A stretch of 33,213 nt of DNA from Thermoanaerobaculia bacterium (GCA_017998715.1 JAGOCP010000008.1:1-33213); one strand, 5' to 3'. Positions 20,393 through 31,042 are shown, counted from the stretch's first letter. Program-made: numbers and translations. Notes: generated by a model from the letters alone, not told the origin.

Positions 20393-20443
20393 TGTAGCTC
20401 CCGGCGCCGAGCCGGGGTATCTCCGGGCGAGGCGTGGCAGAAT
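20391..20443. promoter_or_regulatory. divergent promoter region between ECF sigma factor and Ser/Thr kinase
   Basis: The 62-bp gap holds TACAAT on the minus strand (20391-20396), a perfect CCCGG/CCGGG inverted repeat (20400-20404 / 20412-20416) with another CCGGG at 20423-20427, and CAGAAT on the plus strand (20438-20443), 11 nt before the kinase ATG. The inverted repeat between two outward promoters is well placed for a shared operator or ECF recognition site. This is inferred from layout. Confidence 0.4.
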
Positions 20444-20454
20444 CGCGGCTCCCG

Positions 20455-23238
20455 ATGACCGCCCCGGAAAGTCCTGTCGAGCGCCGCGCGCGCCTCTTCT
20501 CCGAGCTCTGCGAGCTCGCAGAGCCGGAGCGCCAGGCGGCGCTGGCGCGACTCGCAGGCGAGGACCCGGCACTCGCCGCGGATGTCGCGCGCCTGCTGGA
20601 GCTCGATCGCCAGTCGATCGGCCCGATCGAAGGGCTCCGCGACGAAGTTGCCGGTGCCGCCGGGCGCCATCTGCTCGCAGCGGAGATGGCGGAGCCGGCG
20701 CCGCCCGAGCGCCTCGGTGCCTGGTTGCTGGGCGCCAAGCTCGGCGTCGGCGGCATGGGCGAGGTCTGGGCGGCGGAACGCGTCGAGGGCGGCTTCACCC
20801 AGCGCGCTGCGGTGAAACTGGTGCGCTCCGGCATGGCGAGCCGCGAGATCGTCGCTCGCTTCGCCATCGAGCGCCAGCTCCTGGCGCGCCTCGATCATCC
20901 GGCGATCGCGACGCTGCTCGACGGGGGCATCGCCCCCGATGGCCGTCCATGGTTCGCCATGGAGCGCGTCGACGGCTTGCCGATCACTCATTTCGCCGAC
21001 ACCCGCGGCCTCGACCTCGAAGCCCGCCTGCGACTCCTCCTGGCGGTCGCCGACGCGGTCGACTTCGCTCATCGCTCTCTGGTCATTCACCGCGACCTCA
21101 AGCCGTCGAACATTCTGGTGACGCCGGCGGGCGCGCCGAAGCTGCTCGATTTCGGGCTCGCCAAGTTGCTCGAGCCCGGGTTCGAGTCGGGGATCGACCC
21201 GAACGTGACCAAGACCGAGTTCCGGGCGCTCACACCGGCCTATGCCGCGCCCGAGCAGATTCTGGGCGAGCCGGTCACGACCGCCACCGACGTCTACTCT
21301 TTGGGCGTCATCCTCTATGAGCTTCTGACCGGCGAGCTGCCTCACCGGCGCCGCGTGAGCTCCGCCACCACCCTCGCTTCCGAGGTGGAACACGAGACGC
21401 TCGAGCGGCCGTCGAGCCGGCTGCGCCGGCTCGGATCCGGACCGGCGCGCGGAGCTTTGCAGAGCCGGCGCATCACGCCCGATCTGGACATCATCGTGCT
21501 CAAGGCTCTGGCCCGCGAGCGCGCGCGGCGCTACCCCTCGGTCGCGGCTTTCGCTGCCGACCTCGTCGCCTACCTCGAGCGACGCCCGATCACGGCGAGG
21601 GCGGATACGGTGCGCTACCGGCTGTCGAAGTTCGTACGCCGCCACCGCCTCGCTGTCGCCGCGGGTGTCGTCGTCTTCGCGGCGCTGGTCCTGGCGCTCT
21701 CTGTCTCGATCCGGCAGACGCGCCGGGCCAACGCGGCGGCCGAGGCGGCCCGCCTCGAGGCGCGGCGAGCGGAGCGCGTCAAGGGGTTCCTCGTTTCGGT
21801 TTTCGAACAGGCCGATCCAAATCAGTCGCGCGGCGCCGAGATGCCGGCGCGGCAGATTCTCACCGAGGGGGCCAGCCGGCTGGAGGTCGAGCTCCGCGAC
21901 GAGCCCGAGGTTCGCGCCGAGCTCTACGACTCGGTGGCACGGATCCAGGGGAGCCTGGGACTGCTCGATGAAGGGCTGGCCTCCGCTGAGCGCGCCGCGG
22001 CGGAACGTGCCCGCCTCTTCGGGCCGCGCTCCCGCGAGCATGCGCAGAGCCTGGTGACGGTCGGCAAGGCGCTCCTCGCCCAGGGCCGCGTCGAAGAGGC
22101 AGGCAAGCGGTTCGAGGAGGCGGTGCTGCACTTCGGGAGCGCAGGTGAAGCGCGCTCGGTCGATTGCGCCGCGGCGCTCTCGGGCCGCGCCGAGGTGCGC
22201 ATGCTGACGGGAGACCTCCCAGGTGCGCTCACCGACGAGCGTCTCGCCTTCGAGCTCACCGCTGCGGCGCTGGGCGAGACCGATCCCCAGACCCTCGAGC
22301 ACCTCTCCAACATCGCCGTGCTGCAGACCGAGTCCGGCACCTTCGCCGAAGCGGTGCGCATCTTCCGGGAGATCCTCGCGGTACTCGAGCCGACCGAGGG
22401 CGCCGATTCTCCGAAGGTCCTGAACGTCGTGCTCAATCTCGCGACGGCGCTCGACTCGGCGGGAGAGACCACCGAGGCGCTGGCCGACTTCGAGCGCGTC
22501 GTGGCCGGGCGCCGCCGGATCTATGGCGCGCAGCATCCGGCGCTCGGCGAGGCCCTGGTGATCACCAGCCTCCGACTCTCCCGCGCCGGCCGCAGCGCCG
22601 ATGCGCTCGCCGCACTCGCCGAGGCGCGGGCCATCTACGAGCCGCTCGACCATCCGGAGCTCGGTTCGGTCGAGAACTACACCGGCCTCGCGCTCTCCGA
22701 TCTCGGCCGTTTTGCCGAGGCCGAGCGCGCTTTCGAGCGCGCTGCGGCGCGCTTCGCGAAAGACCTGGGCGCCGACGCGATCCTGACCGTGAACGCGCAG
22801 TCGAACGAGGCCTACACGGTGAGCGAACAGGGGCGGGTGGCCGAGGCGGAGGCGATGTTCGGGCGCGCCATCGCGGCGCTGCGCGCCCTGGGCGAGTTCG
22901 ACAACCCGCGGCTGCTGCGGACGCGCCTCAACTGGGGCGCGAACCTGCGCAAGCTCGGCCGCTTTCGCGAGGCCCGTACCGTGCTCGACGAGGCTCTGGC
23001 TCTGGCGCGCCTGAAGCTCGACGCCGGGCACCTGCGCATCGCCGAGGGCGAGGTCGAGCTCGCGCGTCTCGACCTCGCCGAAGGCGGATCTGGCGAGGAG
23101 CGCGCCGCCGCCGTGGCGCGGGCCGGAGAGCGGCTTGCCGTCGCCGAGGCGATTGCCGCGACGAAGGCTCCCTCTCCGACCTTCCGGCGCAATATGGCGG
23201 CGGCGAAATCCGAGCTCGCGCGGGGCGGTGGAAGCTGA
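20455..23238 (+). CDS. membrane Ser/Thr protein kinase with TPR sensor domain
   Basis: This 927-aa Hanks-type kinase has all key residues: glycine loop LGVGGMGEVW, lysine in AAVKLV, glutamate in FAIERQLL, catalytic HRDLKPSN, DFGLAK, and AAPEQI. The kinase domain spans about residues 80-370. A single membrane helix follows near 397-420 (LAVAAGVVVFAALVLALSVSI). The rest is about 500 residues of TPR-like helical repeats (for example AEAVRIFREILAVLEP, GRFAEAERAFERAAARFA), probably outside the membrane and able to bind peptides or proteins. The N-terminal 75 residues are helical. ATG 20455 is used; a GTG at 20434 lies upstream of the putative -10. The adjacent ECF sigma factor is the likely downstream target. 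Confidence 0.9.
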   Translation: MTAPESPVERRARLFSELCELAEPERQAALARLAGEDPALAADVARLLELDRQSIGPIEGLRDEVAGAAGRHLLAAEMAEPAPPERLGAWLLGAKLGVGGMGEVWAAERVEGGFTQRAAVKLVRSGMASREIVARFAIERQLLARLDHPAIATLLDGGIAPDGRPWFAMERVDGLPITHFADTRGLDLEARLRLLLAVADAVDFAHRSLVIHRDLKPSNILVTPAGAPKLLDFGLAKLLEPGFESGIDPNVTKTEFRALTPAYAAPEQILGEPVTTATDVYSLGVILYELLTGELPHRRRVSSATTLASEVEHETLERPSSRLRRLGSGPARGALQSRRITPDLDIIVLKALARERARRYPSVAAFAADLVAYLERRPITARADTVRYRLSKFVRRHRLAVAAGVVVFAALVLALSVSIRQTRRANAAAEAARLEARRAERVKGFLVSVFEQADPNQSRGAEMPARQILTEGASRLEVELRDEPEVRAELYDSVARIQGSLGLLDEGLASAERAAAERARLFGPRSREHAQSLVTVGKALLAQGRVEEAGKRFEEAVLHFGSAGEARSVDCAAALSGRAEVRMLTGDLPGALTDERLAFELTAAALGETDPQTLEHLSNIAVLQTESGTFAEAVRIFREILAVLEPTEGADSPKVLNVVLNLATALDSAGETTEALADFERVVAGRRRIYGAQHPALGEALVITSLRLSRAGRSADALAALAEARAIYEPLDHPELGSVENYTGLALSDLGRFAEAERAFERAAARFAKDLGADAILTVNAQSNEAYTVSEQGRVAEAEAMFGRAIAALRALGEFDNPRLLRTRLNWGANLRKLGRFREARTVLDEALALARLKLDAGHLRIAEGEVELARLDLAEGGSGEERAAAVARAGERLAVAEAIAATKAPSPTFRRNMAAAKSELARGGGS

Positions 23239-23762: not shown

Positions 23763-25475
23763 CTACGGCGCGTCGGGCCAGGCGGCGGTCGTGCCCTCCT
23801 CGAAGCCGTCGCCGAAGATCCGGCTGTCGACGGTGAAGAGGTGGAAGCGGCCGTCGACCAGCTCGTCGGAGTAGTAGAGCGTGCCGGCGCTGTCGGGGAA
23901 GACCTCGAAGGTGGAGATCCGGCCGCCGGCGACCGGGTCGCCGTTCAGGCGTTTGTCCTGGACGTAGCGTGGCGAGAGACGCTGTTCGTAGAGACCGCGC
24001 TGATCGGACGGCGCGTCTTCGTCGACGGTGAAGACGACGCGTCGCCCGTCGGGATGGAATCTCCACAGGGTGCCGGTCGAACGGTCCGGACCCGGAATCG
24101 AGCTGTCGTTGGTGATCCGGTCCTGGGTCGCGGAACCGTCAGCCGGCACCGAATAGAGGTCGAAGCGGTCGTTCTGCGAGATGTCGGCGCGGAAGACGAT
24201 CGACGCACTGTCGGGCGTGAACTCCAGGCCGGTGACGTCGGATCCCGCGGCGACGATGCCCGAAACCAGCTGCACCGCGAGCGTCGACGGCCCGGCGATC
24301 GGCACCGACCAGGCGCGGAAGGTCTCGTTCGTCGTTTGGTCGGCGATGTAGGCGACGCGCGTGCTGTCGGGGGAGATGTCGAAGGAGCTCTCGACATCGC
24401 CGCCGGCAACGAGGGCCGGGTTGAGGCGCACCATTGCGCCGGCGGGGCCGGCGATCGGCACGCTCCAGAGCTCGAAGCGCTCGTCGACGAGCTTGTCGGC
24501 GCGCAGCACCATGTACTGCCCATCCGGTGACGTGGAGAACGACTGGATCGCTCCGCCCTCGACGAAGCTCCCGCCGAGGGAGACCGACTCGGAGGCCGGT
24601 CCCGCCATCGGCACGCTCCAGAGTTGGTTGGTGCGGTCCCCCACCGGGGTGTCGCAGGTCAGGGCATAGGCGATGCGCTCGGCCTGGGCCGAGGCCGCGA
24701 CGAGGAAGGCGATGCAACCCGGCGGCGCCGCGTCGAGCAGGGAGACCCCGGCCGCCGCCGGGCCGGCGAGCGGCGCCGACCAGAGCCTGACCGCGCCGGT
24801 TGTGGTGTTGTAGATCAGCAGCACGACCCGGCTGTCGGAGACGACCAATCCGCCGTAGATCTGCTCCTCGACGGTGAGATCGAAGTCGAGCCGCACGCTG
24901 GCCGCGGCCGGCCCGGCGACCGGCACGCCCCAGAAGCCGACCCCCGACGCCGTTTCGGCCAGATACCCGATGCGCCCGCCGGCTGCCGGTATCGTGGACC
25001 CGGAGACGCCGGCGCCAGTGACTGGCAGATTGAGCTTGACGGCGGAAGCCGGTGTGCCGGCGATAGGCGCGCTCCAGAGCTCGTCGAGGCCGGACGTTTC
25101 GAGATCACCGCGGTAGATGACGAACCGGCCGTCGATGGAGAGCTCGAGGCTCTGCACTGCGCCAAGCGGTCCATACGGCGACAGCCGGTGGAGCTCGGAG
25201 CCGCTGCGGCGCCGCGAGTAGACCGCCTCGGCACCGGTGTTCTCGACGTCGCCGACGAACACCACCCACTCGCCGCGCCGATCGACCTCCCACAGGAAGC
25301 TCACCGACGAACCTGGCTCGCCCGGAGGCGAGAACTGCCGCCAGACATAGTCGGGAGGCAGGGATAGCTGGGCGGCGGCCGGGACTGCGGCGAGCGCGAG
25401 AAGCGCGGCGAGTGGCAGAGGTGCCTTGGAGAAATCACTTCGCAGCCACCGGAGTCCGAGAACGCTCATGCCCAT
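23763..25475 (-). CDS. secreted beta-propeller protein (TolB/WD40-like repeats) with C-terminal DGFE tail
   Basis: This 570-aa protein has a signal peptide ending near PAAAQ (about residue 36). A string of WD40/TolB-type beta-propeller blades follows. Six blades contain a near-identical strand of the form W-S-x-P-x-A-G-P with a following V-x-L, repeating every 48-54 residues. Later blades carry FTPDSASIVFRAD and FHPDGRRVVFTVDED. The last residues read IFGDGFEEGTTAAW plus five, a tail shared with the two delta-60 proteins upstream. There is no membrane anchor and no enzyme motif, so a surface or secreted binding role is likely. ATG 25475 is chosen for the signal peptide; ATG 25469 is equally possible. 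It converges on trmO with 16 bp between. Confidence 0.78.
   Translation of the reverse strand: MGMSVLGLRWLRSDFSKAPLPLAALLALAAVPAAAQLSLPPDYVWRQFSPPGEPGSSVSFLWEVDRRGEWVVFVGDVENTGAEAVYSRRRSGSELHRLSPYGPLGAVQSLELSIDGRFVIYRGDLETSGLDELWSAPIAGTPASAVKLNLPVTGAGVSGSTIPAAGGRIGYLAETASGVGFWGVPVAGPAAASVRLDFDLTVEEQIYGGLVVSDSRVVLLIYNTTTGAVRLWSAPLAGPAAAGVSLLDAAPPGCIAFLVAASAQAERIAYALTCDTPVGDRTNQLWSVPMAGPASESVSLGGSFVEGGAIQSFSTSPDGQYMVLRADKLVDERFELWSVPIAGPAGAMVRLNPALVAGGDVESSFDISPDSTRVAYIADQTTNETFRAWSVPIAGPSTLAVQLVSGIVAAGSDVTGLEFTPDSASIVFRADISQNDRFDLYSVPADGSATQDRITNDSSIPGPDRSTGTLWRFHPDGRRVVFTVDEDAPSDQRGLYEQRLSPRYVQDKRLNGDPVAGGRISTFEVFPDSAGTLYYSDELVDGRFHLFTVDSRIFGDGFEEGTTAAWPDAP
24288..25070 (-). repeat. six tandem WSxPxAGP blade repeats inside the propeller gene
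   Basis: Six copies of the P-I/V/M/L-A-G-P strand are centred near 24297, 24453, 24606, 24768, 24918 and 25062. The steps are 156, 153, 162, 150 and 144 bp, all whole codons. Nucleotide identity is highest around the CCGATCGCCGG core. Confidence 0.75.
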
Positions 25476-25577
25476 GAATACGCGAATCGAACCCGGCGGG
25501 CGACATCCGATCTCACTCATCCGCATCCCGGGAGGAAAGGCCATCCCGTCGCCTGGAACCGCGAATGGCGGCTCGCC

Positions 25578-26918
25578 TCAGTTCCCCAGCCACCCCGAGA
25601 CCGACCCGCGCTCGAAGCCGTCGGTGAAAATCAGGGCGCTCTGGGTGCGCAGGATAGCGAAGGCGGAGCTTTGGGCACTGTCGGCGGGGCTCGTGGCGGC
25701 GCCGGCGGCGACGAGCTTCCCGCCGACGAACGCCGCTGCATAGGCGGCATCGGCCGCATCCGGCGCGGCATTGAACTCGTAGCGGACGACGCCGTTGTCA
25801 TCGAACGAGTTGTCGAGGGTGCCGTTCGTCTCCAGGCGCGCGAGAAAGAACCCGCCGAGCTCCGCACCGGTGTGGTCGATCGAGCCTGCGGCCACGACCT
25901 TCCGATCACTCTGCAGCTGGAGCGAGTTGAGTCGCGTGCCCTCTTCCAGGTCGAGATCGACGACGCCACTCGTGCCGAAGCCGGTATCGACGGCGCCGGT
26001 CGAGGTGCGCGCCAAAATGAAGCTCTGGCCCGCAATCAGAATCCGCCCGGAGACCGGATCGAGCTGGAGAGCGTCCGGAGAAGAGAACGGTGCGCCGTCG
26101 ACGAAGGCGATCCCGTCGCCGCCGCCGAAAGTCGGGTCGAAGTTTCCGGCGGTGGTCAGGCGGACGAGGAAGAGGTCGTGCGTGGCCACCGGAGTCGCTC
26201 CGATGACGACCGGTCGGCCGGCCTCGTCCACCGCGACCCGGATCGAGTTGTGGATCGCACCGGGGTCAGCGGTGAAGATCGCCCAGCCATCGTCGCCGAA
26301 AGCGGTGTCGATCTCGCAGTCGGCGTCCAGCCGGAGCACGAAGAGGGCGTTCGGAGCGCACAGCTCGCAGCTTCCGGCGACGAAGTAGCCGCCGTCCGGA
26401 CTGCGGGCGATCGCGTGCCCACCGAGATTGCCACCGGGAACCGGCACGTCCGGGATGATCTTGAGGCCGCCCGGCCCGAACGAAAGATCGGGCAGCCCAT
26501 TGGCGAGGATGCGCGCGAAGGCGATCGACGGATCGCTGTAGCGGTCGCGACCCGCGAGCACGATGGCGCCGTCGGGCTGGACGAAGATCGCGAGAACGAT
26601 GCCGTAGCTTTCGGGTGTCGCCACCTCGACGATCCCCGAGCTGCCGAAGGCGAGGTCGGGGGAGCCGTCGGACGCCAGTTTGACCAGCGCGAAGTGGTTG
26701 GAGCTGTTCGAGGTCTGTCCCATCGAACCGGCGACGAGGATCGAACCGTCCGAGAGCCCGGCGACGGCGCGGGCTGTGGCCGTGTTTTCGGCAGCGGACG
26801 GCGCCGCGATCACCTGTTTGCCGTCGCCCGCAAAGGCGCTGTCGAGATCGCCGTCGGCGGCGTGGAGCGCGGGCGGCAGCAGGAGCGTCAGGGCGATGGC
26901 GAGCGGGCGACGGAGCAT
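25578..26918 (-). CDS. secreted delta-60 repeat protein (copy 1) with C-terminal DGFE tail
   Basis: This 446-aa protein has a signal peptide (RRPLAIALTLLLPPALHA) followed directly by ADGDLDSAF, the start of the first delta-60 repeat. About seven repeats follow, each with a D-G-x-I-x-V-A-G strand, an F-x-L-x-R/K-L strand and a closing D-x-x-F-G-x-x-G turn (PDLAFGSSG, PDLSFGPGG, IDTAFGDDG, VDTGFGTSG, LDNSFDDNG). Such repeats form beta-propeller-like surfaces on exported proteins; the function is unknown. The tail is ALIFTDGFERGSVSGWLGN. It is paralogous to the gene at 28590-29951, most closely in the last 90 residues. The ATG has GGAG 10 nt upstream, inside a small hairpin. Confidence 0.8.
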   Translation of the reverse strand: MLRRPLAIALTLLLPPALHAADGDLDSAFAGDGKQVIAAPSAAENTATARAVAGLSDGSILVAGSMGQTSNSSNHFALVKLASDGSPDLAFGSSGIVEVATPESYGIVLAIFVQPDGAIVLAGRDRYSDPSIAFARILANGLPDLSFGPGGLKIIPDVPVPGGNLGGHAIARSPDGGYFVAGSCELCAPNALFVLRLDADCEIDTAFGDDGWAIFTADPGAIHNSIRVAVDEAGRPVVIGATPVATHDLFLVRLTTAGNFDPTFGGGDGIAFVDGAPFSSPDALQLDPVSGRILIAGQSFILARTSTGAVDTGFGTSGVVDLDLEEGTRLNSLQLQSDRKVVAAGSIDHTGAELGGFFLARLETNGTLDNSFDDNGVVRYEFNAAPDAADAAYAAAFVGGKLVAAGAATSPADSAQSSAFAILRTQSALIFTDGFERGSVSGWLGN

Positions 26919-26919
26919 G

Positions 26920-26936
26920 GTGGGAGTTCTCCCCAC
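26920..26936 (-). promoter_or_regulatory. RBS-containing hairpin of delta-60 copy 1
   Basis: On the minus strand GTGGG and CCCAC pair around a 7-nt loop, and the ribosome site GGGGAG runs from stem into loop, 10 nt from the ATG at 26918. The rest of the gap to the SDR gene (26937-27052) holds nothing I recognise. The other delta-60 gene has a comparable arrangement. Confidence 0.35.
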
Positions 26937-27052
26937 AAGAGAGAACGCACAACCGCGTCCGGGAGCGACAGTGCCGGCAGGCGGCTTGCGAGTGAGGGCA
27001 GGTCGGGGCAGACGGCGAGGCCAGCCTACAGGGGGCGAGCGGCTTCGGCGCT

Positions 27053-27772
27053 TCAGCCGACGAGGCCGCCGTCAACCGGGATCGCCGCACCGGTGACGAA
27101 GGCGGCGTCGTCGGAAGCGAGGAAGAGGCAGACGCGGGCGACGTCGTCGGCCGTCCCCAGGCGACGGAGCGCCGTCCGCGCGACGATCGCCTTCCTGAAC
27201 TCGACCGCGGCGGCGCTGTTCATCGCCGTATCGATGTAGCCCGGAACGACAGCGTTGACGGTGATACCGGCCGGCCCCAACTCACGCGCCCAGACCCGGG
27301 TGAGACCGAGGAGTCCGGCCTTGGCGGCGGCGTAGGCGGTCTGGCCGGGGAAGCCGGCGACGGCGAGGATCGAGGAGAAGTTGACGATCCGCCCGCCACC
27401 GCGCCGGCGCAGGAGCGGCAGCAGCGCCTGCGTGCAGTGGAGAGCGCCGGAGAGATTGACGTCGAGCACGCGGCGCCACTCTTCGGCCGTCACCTCCGCG
27501 ACCGTAGGCGAGCGGGCGAGATTGATTCCGGCGTTGTTGATCAGGATGTCGATGCCCGGCAGCCGCTCTGCGAGCGCCGCCGCTGCCACTGCGACGGCAG
27601 CCGCGTCGGCGACATCGACGCGCTCGACAGGATTCTCCTCCGCTCCGGCATCCAGGTCCCAGACCACGACCTCGGCGCCCTCGGCGCGAAAGCGCTCGAC
27701 GGTCGCTCGCCCAATGCCGCGCGCGCCGCCGGTGACGACGGCGATCTTGCCGCTGAGCCGACCGCCAGTCAT
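27053..27772 (-). CDS. short-chain dehydrogenase/reductase (FabG-like)
   Basis: This 239-aa classical SDR has the cofactor motif TGGARGIGRA near residue 14, INNAGINLA, the catalytic serine in IVNFSSILA, and YAAAK with the catalytic Tyr and Lys. It ends in the typical GAAIPVDGGLVG. The sequence resembles 3-oxoacyl-ACP reductase-like enzymes, but the substrate cannot be assigned. An acidic residue after the second strand (VVWDLDAG) favours NAD(H) over NADP(H). Its ATG overlaps the stop of the preceding SDR gene by 4 bp, so the two are translated together and may act in one pathway. Confidence 0.88.
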   Translation of the reverse strand: MTGGRLSGKIAVVTGGARGIGRATVERFRAEGAEVVVWDLDAGAEENPVERVDVADAAAVAVAAAALAERLPGIDILINNAGINLARSPTVAEVTAEEWRRVLDVNLSGALHCTQALLPLLRRRGGGRIVNFSSILAVAGFPGQTAYAAAKAGLLGLTRVWARELGPAGITVNAVVPGYIDTAMNSAAAVEFRKAIVARTALRRLGTADDVARVCLFLASDDAAFVTGAAIPVDGGLVG

Positions 27773-28524
27773 GGCTTCGCCCCCTGAGGAGCCGCCCGAG
27801 CAGGTCGCTTCGCCGGAAACAGGTCGAGCTCGGTCAGGTCGGCCCCGGGAGGCAGCTCGAGCGCGAAACGGACCGTCGCCGCGACCTCCTCAGCCTCGAG
27901 CATCGCCTCGCGACCCGAGAGGGCAACGCCCGAGGCGGCGAAGAAGCCGGTGGCGGTGAGATCGGGGCAGACCAGGACGACGCGCACGCCGCTGTCGCGA
28001 ACCTCCTGGCGCAGACATTCGGTGAAACCGCGCAGGGCGAACTTCGACGCTACGTAAGGTGTCCCCTGCGGCCAGCCGCGCTTCGAAGAGACCGAACCGA
28101 TGTTGACGATGGCGCCTTGGCCCTGCCCGGCGAGGATCGGCACGACATGTTTCGCCGCCAGGATCGCGCCGCGCACGTTGACCGCCCAGACCCGGTCGAG
28201 GAGCGCCGCGTCGAGTTTGTGCACCAGCCCGAAACCGCCGATGCCGGCGGCGTTGACCAGAATGTCGAGCCGGCCGAAGGCGCCGATGGCGCGAGCGACC
28301 AGGCGTTCGATCGCCGACTCGTCGGCGACATCGGTCGGCACCGCGAGGGTGCTCCCTGGCAGGTGCGCGAGCTCCGCTACCACCGTTTCCAGTTCTGCTT
28401 GGCGCCGCGCCGCGAGAACGACGTGCGCTCCGGCACCGGCGAGCTCCGCGGCGATCGCCCGCCCAATGCCGGAGCTCGCACCGGTGACGATCGCGACCTG
28501 GCCTGCGAGAGAGGCGGATGGCAT
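27769..28524 (-). CDS. short-chain dehydrogenase/reductase
   Basis: This 251-aa SDR carries TGASSGIGRAI, the NADP-type basic pair in LAARRQAELE, VNAAGIGG, the catalytic serine in NIGSVSSKRG, and YVASK. The C-terminal part (TELDLFPAKRPARAAP) differs from the adjacent SDR, and the two are not close paralogs. It probably acts on a different oxidation state or cofactor from its partner, given its Arg-Arg versus the partner's Asp. It is first in the pair, with a TAGAGT element 7 nt before the ATG and no ribosome site, suggesting a leaderless mRNA. The substrate is unknown. Confidence 0.87.
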   Translation of the reverse strand: MPSASLAGQVAIVTGASSGIGRAIAAELAGAGAHVVLAARRQAELETVVAELAHLPGSTLAVPTDVADESAIERLVARAIGAFGRLDILVNAAGIGGFGLVHKLDAALLDRVWAVNVRGAILAAKHVVPILAGQGQGAIVNIGSVSSKRGWPQGTPYVASKFALRGFTECLRQEVRDSGVRVVLVCPDLTATGFFAASGVALSGREAMLEAEEVAATVRFALELPPGADLTELDLFPAKRPARAAPQGAKP

Positions 28525-28531
28525 GGGGTGG

Positions 28532-28537
28532 ACTCTA
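28532..28537 (-). promoter_or_regulatory. TAGAGT -10-like element for the SDR pair
   Basis: TAGAGT on the minus strand lies 7 nt before the ATG at 28524, with no ribosome site between. The identical TAGAGTCC string occurs at 19363-19370. The 65-bp gap to the upstream delta-60 gene contains no clear terminator. Confidence 0.35.
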
Positions 28538-28589
28538 TGCGACGGAGACCTCGCGCGCGGCAGCAGGCGGACAGGCGATTCGTCGCGAT

Positions 28590-29951
28590 TCAGTTTCCCA
28601 GCCAGGCCGAGGTCGAGGCGCGTTCGAAGCCGTCGGTGAAGATGAGGGCGCTCCGGGTGCGCAGAACGGCGAAGGCGCGATCGTTCAACGGGCCAATGCC
28701 GGCGTAGCCAGCGGCGACGAGCCGGCCGCCCGGGAGAGCAAGAGCGGAACCAATGTCGCGCGCGTCGACGTCGCGGTCGAACTCGTAGCGAACGACGCCG
28801 TTGCCATCGAAGCTGTTGTCGGCTCCGCCCTCCGGCAGGAGGCGCGCGAGCAGAAAGCCGCCCTTCTGGGTGCCGGTGTGGTCGATATGACCGGCGAGAA
28901 CGATCCTGCGGTCGCTCTGCACCGCGATCGCGCTCATCCAGCTGCCCTCTTCGAGCGTCATGTCGGCGAAACCGTCTACGCCGAAAGCGGTGTCGATCTC
29001 TCCCGCGGTGTCGAGTCGCACGACCAGACCGGCGTCGAAGTTCGCGTCGTTGTCGCGCAGCGAGAGAATCGGCTTCCAGGTCGACGGATCGAGCGCCAGG
29101 TCGGCCGCGACCCAGACCTCGCCGAAGTCGACGATGTTCACGAGCTCGGCCAGGCCCGTCGTGCCGACGCGCAGGTAGACCGGGCGGTAGCTCGACGGCG
29201 CGAGAGCGTTGGCGGCGACGTGGATCCGGCCGAGGTCGTCGATCTCGACCGCGGCTGCGGACTCGGCGGTCGCGCCCGGAATGTCGAGCAGGGTCCAGCC
29301 GTCGCTCGAGAAGGTCGGGTCGGGAGCGCCGTTCTCGTCGATTCGCAGCAGGAAGATGTGTCCCTGGATGAATCCAGCGGGCGGACTCGAGGTCCCGAGA
29401 AGAACGACTTTGCCGTCCGGCTGCCGCACCGCATCTTCAATGTAGACCGATGTCGTCGCGTCCGGAAGCACGTCGAAGACGATCTTTCCGCCGGTGCCGA
29501 AGCCGGTGTCGAGGTCGCCGCCGGCCGTCAGGCGAGCGACTCCGGGCAGAAAGACGGTCGCCGTCTCGACGGTGCCGATGAGCAGGCTCTTGCCGCCCGG
29601 CAGCGTGAGGACTTGCCGCAGGCTGTCGCCTTCGTTGTCTCCGACGTCGAACGGGACGCGGGTGAAGCCCTGCTCGCCGAAGGCGGTGTCGACGCTGCCG
29701 TCGGCGCCGTAGCGCACGACACCGAAGTCCATGCTCGTGACTTTCACCTGGCCGCCGACCAGAATGGAGCCGTCAGCCGCCGCAGCAACTGCGAGGGCGT
29801 GCGTGAAGTCGACGCCCCAGTCCTGGATGTCCTGGCCGTCGCTGGAGAAGCCGGTATCGAGGTCGCCGTCGGCGGCGCAAAGCATCTGCGGCAGCGCGAG
29901 TGCCAGGGAGATGGCTGCGGCGAGCGACGCGTTCCGAAACCGTGGGCACAT
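28590..29951 (-). CDS. secreted delta-60 repeat protein (copy 2) with C-terminal DGFE tail
   Basis: This 453-aa protein has a signal peptide (LAAAISLALALPQMLCA) and then ADGDLDTGF, as in the paralog at 25578-26918. Repeats close with turns such as VDTAFGEQG, LDTGFGTGG, IDTAFGVDG and ADNSFDGNGVVRYEF. The tail ALIFTDGFERASTSAWLGN is nearly identical to that of copy 1. There are no catalytic motifs or lipobox; the cysteine at the signal cleavage region (QMLCAAD) lacks a convincing lipoprotein context. The ATG has a strong GAGGAGAA ribosome site with GGAG 10 nt upstream, the same spacing as copy 1. The two copies flank the SDR pair and are all on one strand. Confidence 0.82.
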   Translation of the reverse strand: MCPRFRNASLAAAISLALALPQMLCAADGDLDTGFSSDGQDIQDWGVDFTHALAVAAAADGSILVGGQVKVTSMDFGVVRYGADGSVDTAFGEQGFTRVPFDVGDNEGDSLRQVLTLPGGKSLLIGTVETATVFLPGVARLTAGGDLDTGFGTGGKIVFDVLPDATTSVYIEDAVRQPDGKVVLLGTSSPPAGFIQGHIFLLRIDENGAPDPTFSSDGWTLLDIPGATAESAAAVEIDDLGRIHVAANALAPSSYRPVYLRVGTTGLAELVNIVDFGEVWVAADLALDPSTWKPILSLRDNDANFDAGLVVRLDTAGEIDTAFGVDGFADMTLEEGSWMSAIAVQSDRRIVLAGHIDHTGTQKGGFLLARLLPEGGADNSFDGNGVVRYEFDRDVDARDIGSALALPGGRLVAAGYAGIGPLNDRAFAVLRTRSALIFTDGFERASTSAWLGN

Positions 29952-29962
29952 GGTCGTGGTTC

Positions 29963-29984
29963 TCCTCGAGTGGAAGAACGAGGA
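29963..29984 (-). promoter_or_regulatory. RBS-sequestering hairpin of delta-60 copy 2
   Basis: On the minus strand TCCTCG pairs with CGAGGA (6 bp, 10-nt loop), and the 3' arm is the ribosome site of the gene starting at 29951. Pairing would mask the site, so it could tune translation. No ligand-binding core is evident. Confidence 0.35.
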
Positions 29985-30055
29985 ATCCCGTCGCGCGGCG
30001 CCATCGACGGCTGCAGGTGGGGCAGAATGAGCGATGCTGCCGAAGGAGATGGATC

Positions 30056-31042
30056 ATGTCCGGACGATCGCTTGCCGCCCGCTCTGTTCCTAGCCTGCTG
30101 CTCGCCGTCATGCTCCTTGCGACCGGCGCCAGCGCCGATCCGCCGCACCCTTCCACCTTCTCGATCGTCGCCGCCGATCCGGCGACGGGGGAGGTGGGTG
30201 TGGCGGTCGCCAGCCGGTTTTTCGCCGTCGGCTCGGTGGTGCCGTACGCTCGCGCCGGCGTGGGCGCGGTGGCGACGCAGGCTTCGGCGAACACGACCTA
30301 CGGGCCGGGAGCGCTCGACCTCCTGGCCCACGGCGCGAGTCCCAGCGAGGCGCTCGCCATCCTCACCCGCGCCGACGATGGGCAGAGTCACCGCCAGGCG
30401 GGCATCGTCGCGGCGAGCGGAGCGTCGGCGACGTTCACCGGCCCCGAGTGCAGCGCCTGGGCTGGAGGCCGCAGCGGTCCGGGCTACGCTGTGCAGGGCA
30501 ACATCCTGACCGGCGAGCCGGTGGTCGCATCGATGGAGAAGGCGTTCCTCGCGAGCGCCGGCAAGCCCCTCGCCGAACGTCTCTACCTGGCGATCGTCGC
30601 CGGCGATGCCGCCGGCGGCGACAGCCGCGGCAAGCAGTCTGCGGTACTCCTGGTGTCGCGCGCCGGCGGCGGCTACGGTGGCAAGGACGACCGGGCGATC
30701 GACATTCGCGTCGACGACCACGCCGAGCCGATCGTCGAGCTCGGCCGGCTCACCCAGCTCGCGCTGCTCAACGACCTGTGGAATCGTGGCTGGGCGGCGT
30801 TCCGCGACGGCAAACGGGGTGAGGACCTGAAGTGGCAGGAGATGACCCTGGCGCGCGCGGAGGCGACACAGGCCGGCGTCCTCCCCGAAGTCCTCTACGA
30901 CACCGCGGTCATCCGCCTGGCGAACGGCGACGAGCCCGGCGCCCGCGCCGCCCTCGCCGGCGCCCTGGCACTCAACCCGAAGCTCGCGCAGCAGGCGGCG
31001 GTCGACGGCGACCTGGCCGGGCTGCGGGCGGCGAAGCCGTAG
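30056..31042 (+). CDS. secreted DUF1028 family protein
   Basis: This 328-aa protein has a signal peptide (SVPSLLLAVMLLATGASA) followed by a DUF1028 domain: HPSTFSIVAADPATGEVGVAVASRFFAVGSVVPYARAG, GNILTGEPVVASME, and VLLVSRAGGGYGG. DUF1028 proteins resemble Ntn-hydrolase folds, but their reaction is not established. The last 100 residues are helical and include a TPR-like unit (GDEPGARAALAGALALNPKLAQQ). The ATG at 30056 follows GAAGGAGAT. CAGAAT at 30023-30028 may be the -10. It diverges from the delta-60 gene, and both products are exported. Confidence 0.87.
   Translation: MSGRSLAARSVPSLLLAVMLLATGASADPPHPSTFSIVAADPATGEVGVAVASRFFAVGSVVPYARAGVGAVATQASANTTYGPGALDLLAHGASPSEALAILTRADDGQSHRQAGIVAASGASATFTGPECSAWAGGRSGPGYAVQGNILTGEPVVASMEKAFLASAGKPLAERLYLAIVAGDAAGGDSRGKQSAVLLVSRAGGGYGGKDDRAIDIRVDDHAEPIVELGRLTQLALLNDLWNRGWAAFRDGKRGEDLKWQEMTLARAEATQAGVLPEVLYDTAVIRLANGDEPGARAALAGALALNPKLAQQAAVDGDLAGLRAAKP

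Follow-up and report, generated by a model that had tools for sequence, protein, structure and literature searches.

Exported proteins of this Thermoanaerobaculia bacterium share a short terminal tag that is likely to be one half of a split jelly-roll domain, the other half being a separate secreted acceptor on which the tagged proteins would dock non-covalently, probably at the cell surface. Judging from sequence comparison, the most likely partner of the tag is a jelly-roll lacking its first strand, and not a processing enzyme.

Tagged proteins in the window

Three genes on the minus strand of the window, the whole stretch of 33,213 nucleotides analysed here, encode exported proteins with a common tail at the stop codon, as the sequence-only reading had claimed and as reading all three ends confirmed. 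The first is a PD40/TolB-like propeller protein (23763-25544, weak Pfam PD40 match), whose likely start is at 25475 and whose signal peptide, called heuristically as for the other two, covers about 25371-25475. It terminates in SRIFGDGFEEGTTAAWPDAP, the 17 residues of the tag itself (FGDGFEEGTTAAWPDAP) being encoded at 23766-23816 and the stop codon lying at 23763-23765; the tryptophan of this tail is followed by four residues, not by the five counted earlier. The other two are delta-60 (DUF5122) proteins. One (25578-26936; TIGR02608, E=2.5e-56, and PF17164) has its signal peptide at about 26859-26936 and terminates in ALIFTDGFERGSVSGWLGN, with the tag FTDGFERGSVSGWLGN at 25581-25628, and the second (28590-29951; TIGR02608, E=2.4e-45) has its signal peptide at about 29874-29951 and terminates in ALIFTDGFERASTSAWLGN, with the tag FTDGFERASTSAWLGN at 28593-28640. 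The three proteins had been taken to differ in fold; delta-60 and PD40-like proteins are both propeller-type, and fold diversity among tagged proteins appears only genome-wide.

A Ser/Thr kinase with TPRs (Pfam Pkinase and TPR_12; 20434-23238, plus strand) adjoins the tagged propeller gene, and a DUF1028 protein (PF06267, E=1e-72; 29900-31042, plus strand) is encoded divergently from the second delta-60 gene.

The tag in its own genome

Across the 4.0 Mb genome, the pattern FxDGF[ED] has 86 DNA matches, against one for the reversed pattern, and FxDGF[ED]x6W has 72, against none for its control, far more than chance would yield. All 86 places of the shorter pattern were fetched and each reading frame was read individually. 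The motif stands 13-23 residues before the stop codon in 71 copies, 39 of them at exactly 18 (F...WSxxVP, then the stop), so that it is far from being internal as often as terminal; in eight tagged proteins, the tail stops exactly at the tryptophan. Seven copies directly follow an N-terminal signal peptide and form the mature N-terminus (e.g., of a GH123-like protein, a heparinase-like protein, and an alpha/beta hydrolase), three lie near the C-terminus with an extension of 41-90 residues to the stop, one precedes a jelly-roll-like stretch of about 140 residues, and four look like chance. The description of the tail as a C-terminal signal, thus, holds for most copies but not for the seven N-terminal ones, nor for a tagged gene of another genome (G275) discussed below.

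That the tail belongs to exported proteins is borne out by signal-peptide-like starts in 55 of the 59 complete C-terminally tagged proteins, versus 50 of 131 untagged neighbours, the latter having been scored with more freedom. Tagged proteins match at least 36 Pfam families, among them FG-GAP and delta-60 propellers, M28 and M12B peptidases, and ice-binding proteins. The synonymous-site difference between tails is 0.47, where codon usage alone predicts 0.54-0.63, which indicates that the residues are kept by selection rather than by recent copying; the conservation of the tail is old and selected. A variant of the tag, found in the same genome at L012, L035, L057, L039, and L049, has a cysteine two residues before the tryptophan and another at or near the end (e.g., FSDGFDLGDACAWSLAQGGGC before the stop), which suggests a disulphide-closed version of the same element. 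Among 59 relatives, the tag-motif count ranges from 1 to 174, with one genus (g6, 14 genomes) at background.

Known sorting signals and other candidate partners

The tail was rightly said to be unlike LPXTG or PEP-CTERM signals: only 2 of the 71 tails have a hydrophobic 18-residue window in their last 45 residues, none has two or more K/R in the last six, and the tails contain neither a basic cluster nor an invariant cysteine. No Pfam or NCBIfam model matches them above noise, PDB sequence searches with the tail and with the acceptor described below returned nothing significant, and no paper on the tag, nor a description of such a system, was found in the open-access literature searched. The possibility, raised in the sequence-only reading, that the tail is simply the last strand of a delta-60 repeat was discarded, given the breadth of Pfam families that carry it and a tagless delta-60 protein in the tag-poor genome G033.

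An association with one secretion gene family had also been envisaged, and this did not hold, since the type II-like secretin does not track the tag: it is found in tag-zero and tag-rich genomes alike, including the tag-zero genus g6. A GspD search had first seemed to separate tag-rich from tag-zero genomes, but the strong match turned out to be PilQ in a PilMNOP-like cluster, the type II-like secretin being everywhere, and the secretin was rejected as a partner. The PilQ-type secretin is missing in genus g6, yet present in tag-poor genomes. In genomes with the PilM-PilN-PilO-PilP-PilQ type cluster, two conserved lipoprotein-like genes come after it (L193-L206, L210-L212); genus g6 appears to lack the cluster.

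Clustering of the neighbours of 143 tag loci yielded no sorting enzyme; the only families to emerge were Ser/Thr kinases with TPRs and a small one resembling regulators. As raw counts out of about 143 loci, the Ser/Thr-kinase-like family lies near tags in 15, and the second small family, possibly a putative ECF sigma factor, in six; such neighbours were recorded at L020, L035, L036, L060, L074, L095-L097, L099, L106, L107, L146, L147, and L151. The lone tags of genomes from other classes (G250, G095) have no sortase-like neighbour. The earlier idea of a different kind of sorting tag was right in spirit, although the partner is likely to be the acceptor half of a split domain rather than any known sorting enzyme.

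A predicted jelly-roll strand

In other bacteria, internal copies of the motif open a domain of about 200 residues, in which I-F-x-D-G-F-E-x-G-x4-W is invariant (alignment A3); these are the residues fixed in the tag. Intact domains with the motif occur in Chloroflexota, in Acidobacteriota, and in a phage. An AlphaFold model of the intact domain, built from 10 sequences, gives a beta-sandwich (pLDDT 90, pTM 0.88), whose first 30 residues, at about 80 pLDDT, comprise a strand at residues 2-5 (MIFA) and then the DGFE...W loop; an earlier model, from eight sequences, was poor at the N-terminus. Foldseek matches of the model include TtX122 domains, alginate lyases, and other ConA-like folds. As the motif opens the intact domain, coincides with the modelled strand 2-5, and belongs to a domain with ConA-like matches, the tag is, according to the model, strand 1, plus its following loop, of a ConA-like jelly-roll of the laminin-G or alginate-lyase type.

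The undivided jelly-roll, its own strand 1 included (LFTDGFESGNLTAWD...), is also found on phage-type viral contigs (L291, L292, L371); in one case, it opens a repeat protein of 1251 residues.

A candidate acceptor without the first strand

A search of the relatives with the intact domain found short stand-alone proteins that match only from about residue 23 on. These candidate acceptors consist of a Sec signal peptide followed directly by strand 2 (e.g., ...SASA/ANSLAVTAGAALNGTNFGL...), have ~190 mature residues, and end in a short FESFR(TLAP) signature. They were read in 32 genomes, and in 32 of 32 there is no strand 1 between the signal peptide and strand 2. In hhalign, acceptors and intact domains align with 100% probability (E=6.6e-43), acceptor residues 24-206 pairing with domain residues 27-205, so that the acceptor sequence sets in just past strand 1 and its loop. 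The linker lengths of the two forms agree: the intact domain has W+9 to L[AS]V, and the split form W+5 at the end of the tag plus about three residues at the start of the acceptor. No Pfam or NCBIfam model describes the acceptor.

The genome under study has a single acceptor match at E<=1e-12, versus at least 71 tags. It is encoded outside the window, not next to the window genes (L271; G000:C415:705-1355, plus strand), and its mature sequence is MKKLTLAVALLL...FESYR. Most genomes have an acceptor of this kind, a small soluble secreted protein with no obvious anchor of its own. In four genomes, it runs on into SLH-like repeats, supported by Pfam SLH (E=8e-17) for G012 (L287) and by eye for G002 (L269), G004 (L266), and G033 (L361), the acceptor of G020 being cut by a contig end; these repeats suggest surface anchoring.

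Tag-poor relatives show what looks like the ancestral, undivided state. In G046, the same stand-alone protein has strand 1 in place, IFADGFESGDTSAWS...SFRTLSP (...AQQIFADGFESGDTSAWSKARK...SFRTLSP), and in the tag-poor relatives of group f3, the intact domain lies at the C-terminus of cargo, for example, of a glucose/sorbosone dehydrogenase-like protein. From these sequences, the tag-rich state looks like an intact domain split into a donor strand on the cargo and an acceptor in trans.

Co-occurrence and gene adjacency

Among the 59 relatives, the acceptor is found in 28 of 30 tag-rich versus 4 of 29 tag-poor genomes (Fisher, p=2e-10, a value that overstates independence given the shared ancestry of the genomes and is a guide only), and genuine tags are present, too, in each of the four tag-poor genomes that have one. 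Counted per genus, the acceptor is present in 16 of 16 tag-rich versus 1 of 10 tag-poor genera (p=3e-6, to be read with the same caution); this test and the adjacent gene pairs depend less on shared ancestry than the genome-level values. Of 297 genomes sampled from the phylum, five contain two or more tags, and each of these five has an acceptor, versus 3 of the other 292. The three further phylum genomes with an acceptor are G225, whose single genuine tag shares a contig with the acceptor at a distance of about 15 kb, G275, and G277, in which no tag was seen.

A tagged gene lies directly upstream of the acceptor gene in four genomes, with an ATGA overlap of 4 nt in G275 and spacings of 2 nt in G017, 13 nt in G012, and 34 nt in G033. 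The gene that overlaps the acceptor start in G275 is N-terminally tagged.

No acceptor was found in G005 (26 tags, 93% complete) or G038 (15 tags, 91% complete), whose congeners have one, in G250 and G095, which have a single tag each, or in the f3 genomes G048 and G050, which have genuine tags. G275 and G005 use a variant tag, DDFE, and the divergent acceptor of G017 was missed by the first search; assembly gaps, divergent acceptors, and variant tags may explain some of these exceptions.

Distribution in other genomes

The tag-rich genomes among the 297 of the phylum all belong to the same order. Among the matches listed, named genomes are mostly Acidobacteriota/Thermoanaerobaculia, whose tails are 13 or 18 residues long, a pattern suggestive, though not proof, of an origin of the window in that group; in Chloroflexota, Patescibacteria, and others, the motif is internal. 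The sequence-only reading had mentioned similar tails in Acidobacteriota and some Xanthomonadales: the former is supported by the matches listed, and the latter was not confirmed, with no tag-rich genome among 185 from the class of a Kangiella MAG. This MAG has one tagged C-terminus, on a 7 kb contig (L137, JAPHRL010000065.1), and is otherwise a gammaproteobacterial MAG without tags; the contig is probably mis-binned.

Proposed mechanism and alternative explanations

In the mechanism that we propose, strand 1 of the jelly-roll would be carried by dozens of exported cargoes, in most cases at the C-terminus but in some at the mature N-terminus, and the remainder of the domain would be a separate secreted acceptor, beginning at strand 2 after its signal peptide. 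Cargo and acceptor would both be exported through Sec, whereupon the F-x-D-G-F-E-x-G-x4-W segment of the tag would enter the vacant strand-1 slot of the acceptor and complete its fold. Many different cargoes could, in this way, dock on one acceptor without covalent processing, and the completed lectin-like domain, SLH-fused in some lineages, would hold them at the cell surface or in the matrix. That the tag completes the acceptor fold by strand insertion is inferred with good support, while retention of the cargo at the surface or in a matrix, as a consequence, is more speculative. A fuller picture can be drawn only tentatively, and we regard it as slightly more doubtful than probable: one secreted strand-less jelly-roll would capture some seventy exported proteins, by tags of 13-23 residues at either end, into a surface coat or extracellular scaffold, the system having arisen by fission of an ancestral C-terminal lectin-like domain.

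The resemblance of the acceptor fold to polysaccharide lyases, together with its being small, soluble, and secreted in most genomes, could also be taken to mean that it recognises the tag as an enzyme or a chaperone, either a transient export chaperone or a lyase-like protein acting on cargo or glycans, and not as a stable dock. We judge this unlikely, though the least so of the alternatives: the invariant positions of the acceptor include no obvious catalytic residues, and the SLH fusions suit anchoring better than catalysis.

A little less probable still is that the tail is a C-terminal signal for a membrane or outer-membrane machine (type II secretion, a type IV pilus secretin, or an unknown sortase), as in GlyGly-CTERM and MYXO-CTERM proteins, the acceptor being an unrelated passenger. 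Some tagged families do include types that have sortase-dependent tails elsewhere (choice-of-anchor Q, and M36 peptidases dependent on myxosortase, rhombosortase, or T9SS), and the relatives have a locus that resembles type II secretion. Nevertheless, the composition of the tails, without membrane helix, basic cluster, or invariant cysteine, does not suit such a machine, nor does the distribution of either secretin, the type II-like one also occurring in tag-zero g6 and the PilQ-type one, absent there, occurring in tag-poor genomes. Tags at the mature N-terminus do not fit C-terminal processing; they argue against a cleaved tail and suit a donated strand. The adjacent strand-less jelly-roll genes would, moreover, be left unexplained.

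Finally, it is very improbable that the tag is a functionless leftover strand of whole C-terminal jelly-rolls since truncated, in spite of the intact C-terminal domains on cargo in tag-poor relatives and the intact-like motif copies inside longer proteins, because F, D, G, F, E, and W are retained even as synonymous sites approach saturation and AGC and TCN replace one another as serine codons. The tails are, moreover, tightly grouped in length, 39 of 71 having 18 residues, and a relic would not follow a strand-less acceptor from genus to genus or adjoin it in operons.

Comparison with known systems and significance

The proposed docking by strand donation is closest to donor strand complementation, known from chaperone-usher pili and archaeal threads (PMC9715654). 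As there, a short exported peptide would complete the incomplete beta-sandwich of another protein non-covalently, and features of such a pair are found here: the acceptor lacks exactly the strand of the tag, and donor and acceptor co-occur or adjoin. However, donor strand complementation polymerises one subunit family with Ig-like folds, whereas the single ConA-like acceptor proposed here would be shared by dozens of cargoes unrelated to one another and would take the donor strand from either end of the chain.

C-terminal sorting tags processed by membrane proteases, such as GlyGly-CTERM (PMC3237569) and MYXO-CTERM (PMC11980579), offer another comparison. With these, PEP-CTERM, and LPXTG, the tag shares a short tail common to many exported folds, a many-to-one pairing, and a partner found via phylogenetic co-occurrence. 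It differs from them in having no transmembrane helix, basic end, or invariant cysteine, and in also occurring at the mature N-terminus, and its proposed partner is a soluble jelly-roll missing one strand, unlike their membrane proteases.

In cohesin-dockerin systems, too, many secreted enzymes dock non-covalently on one shared partner. A dockerin is, however, a folded calcium-binding domain of about 60-70 residues, whereas the tag has 13-23 residues and would complete the fold of its partner; in Pfam and NCBIfam searches, the tail showed no sequence relation to dockerin. The C-terminal sorting domains of T9SS, found mainly in Bacteroidota, are Ig-like and about 70-100 residues long. Like the tag, they mark the ends of exported proteins, and they direct outer-membrane translocation and anchoring; no T9SS sorting-domain family in Pfam or NCBIfam matches the tails.

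If the proposed pairing is true, it would be a natural tag/catcher pair for protein engineering. It would also represent protein sorting or docking without a membrane enzyme or covalent anchor, in which a domain has been split in two and one half placed on dozens of exported proteins. Many proteins so far without an assigned role in this lineage, which, among the matches listed, is mostly Acidobacteriota, could then be annotated and given a function.
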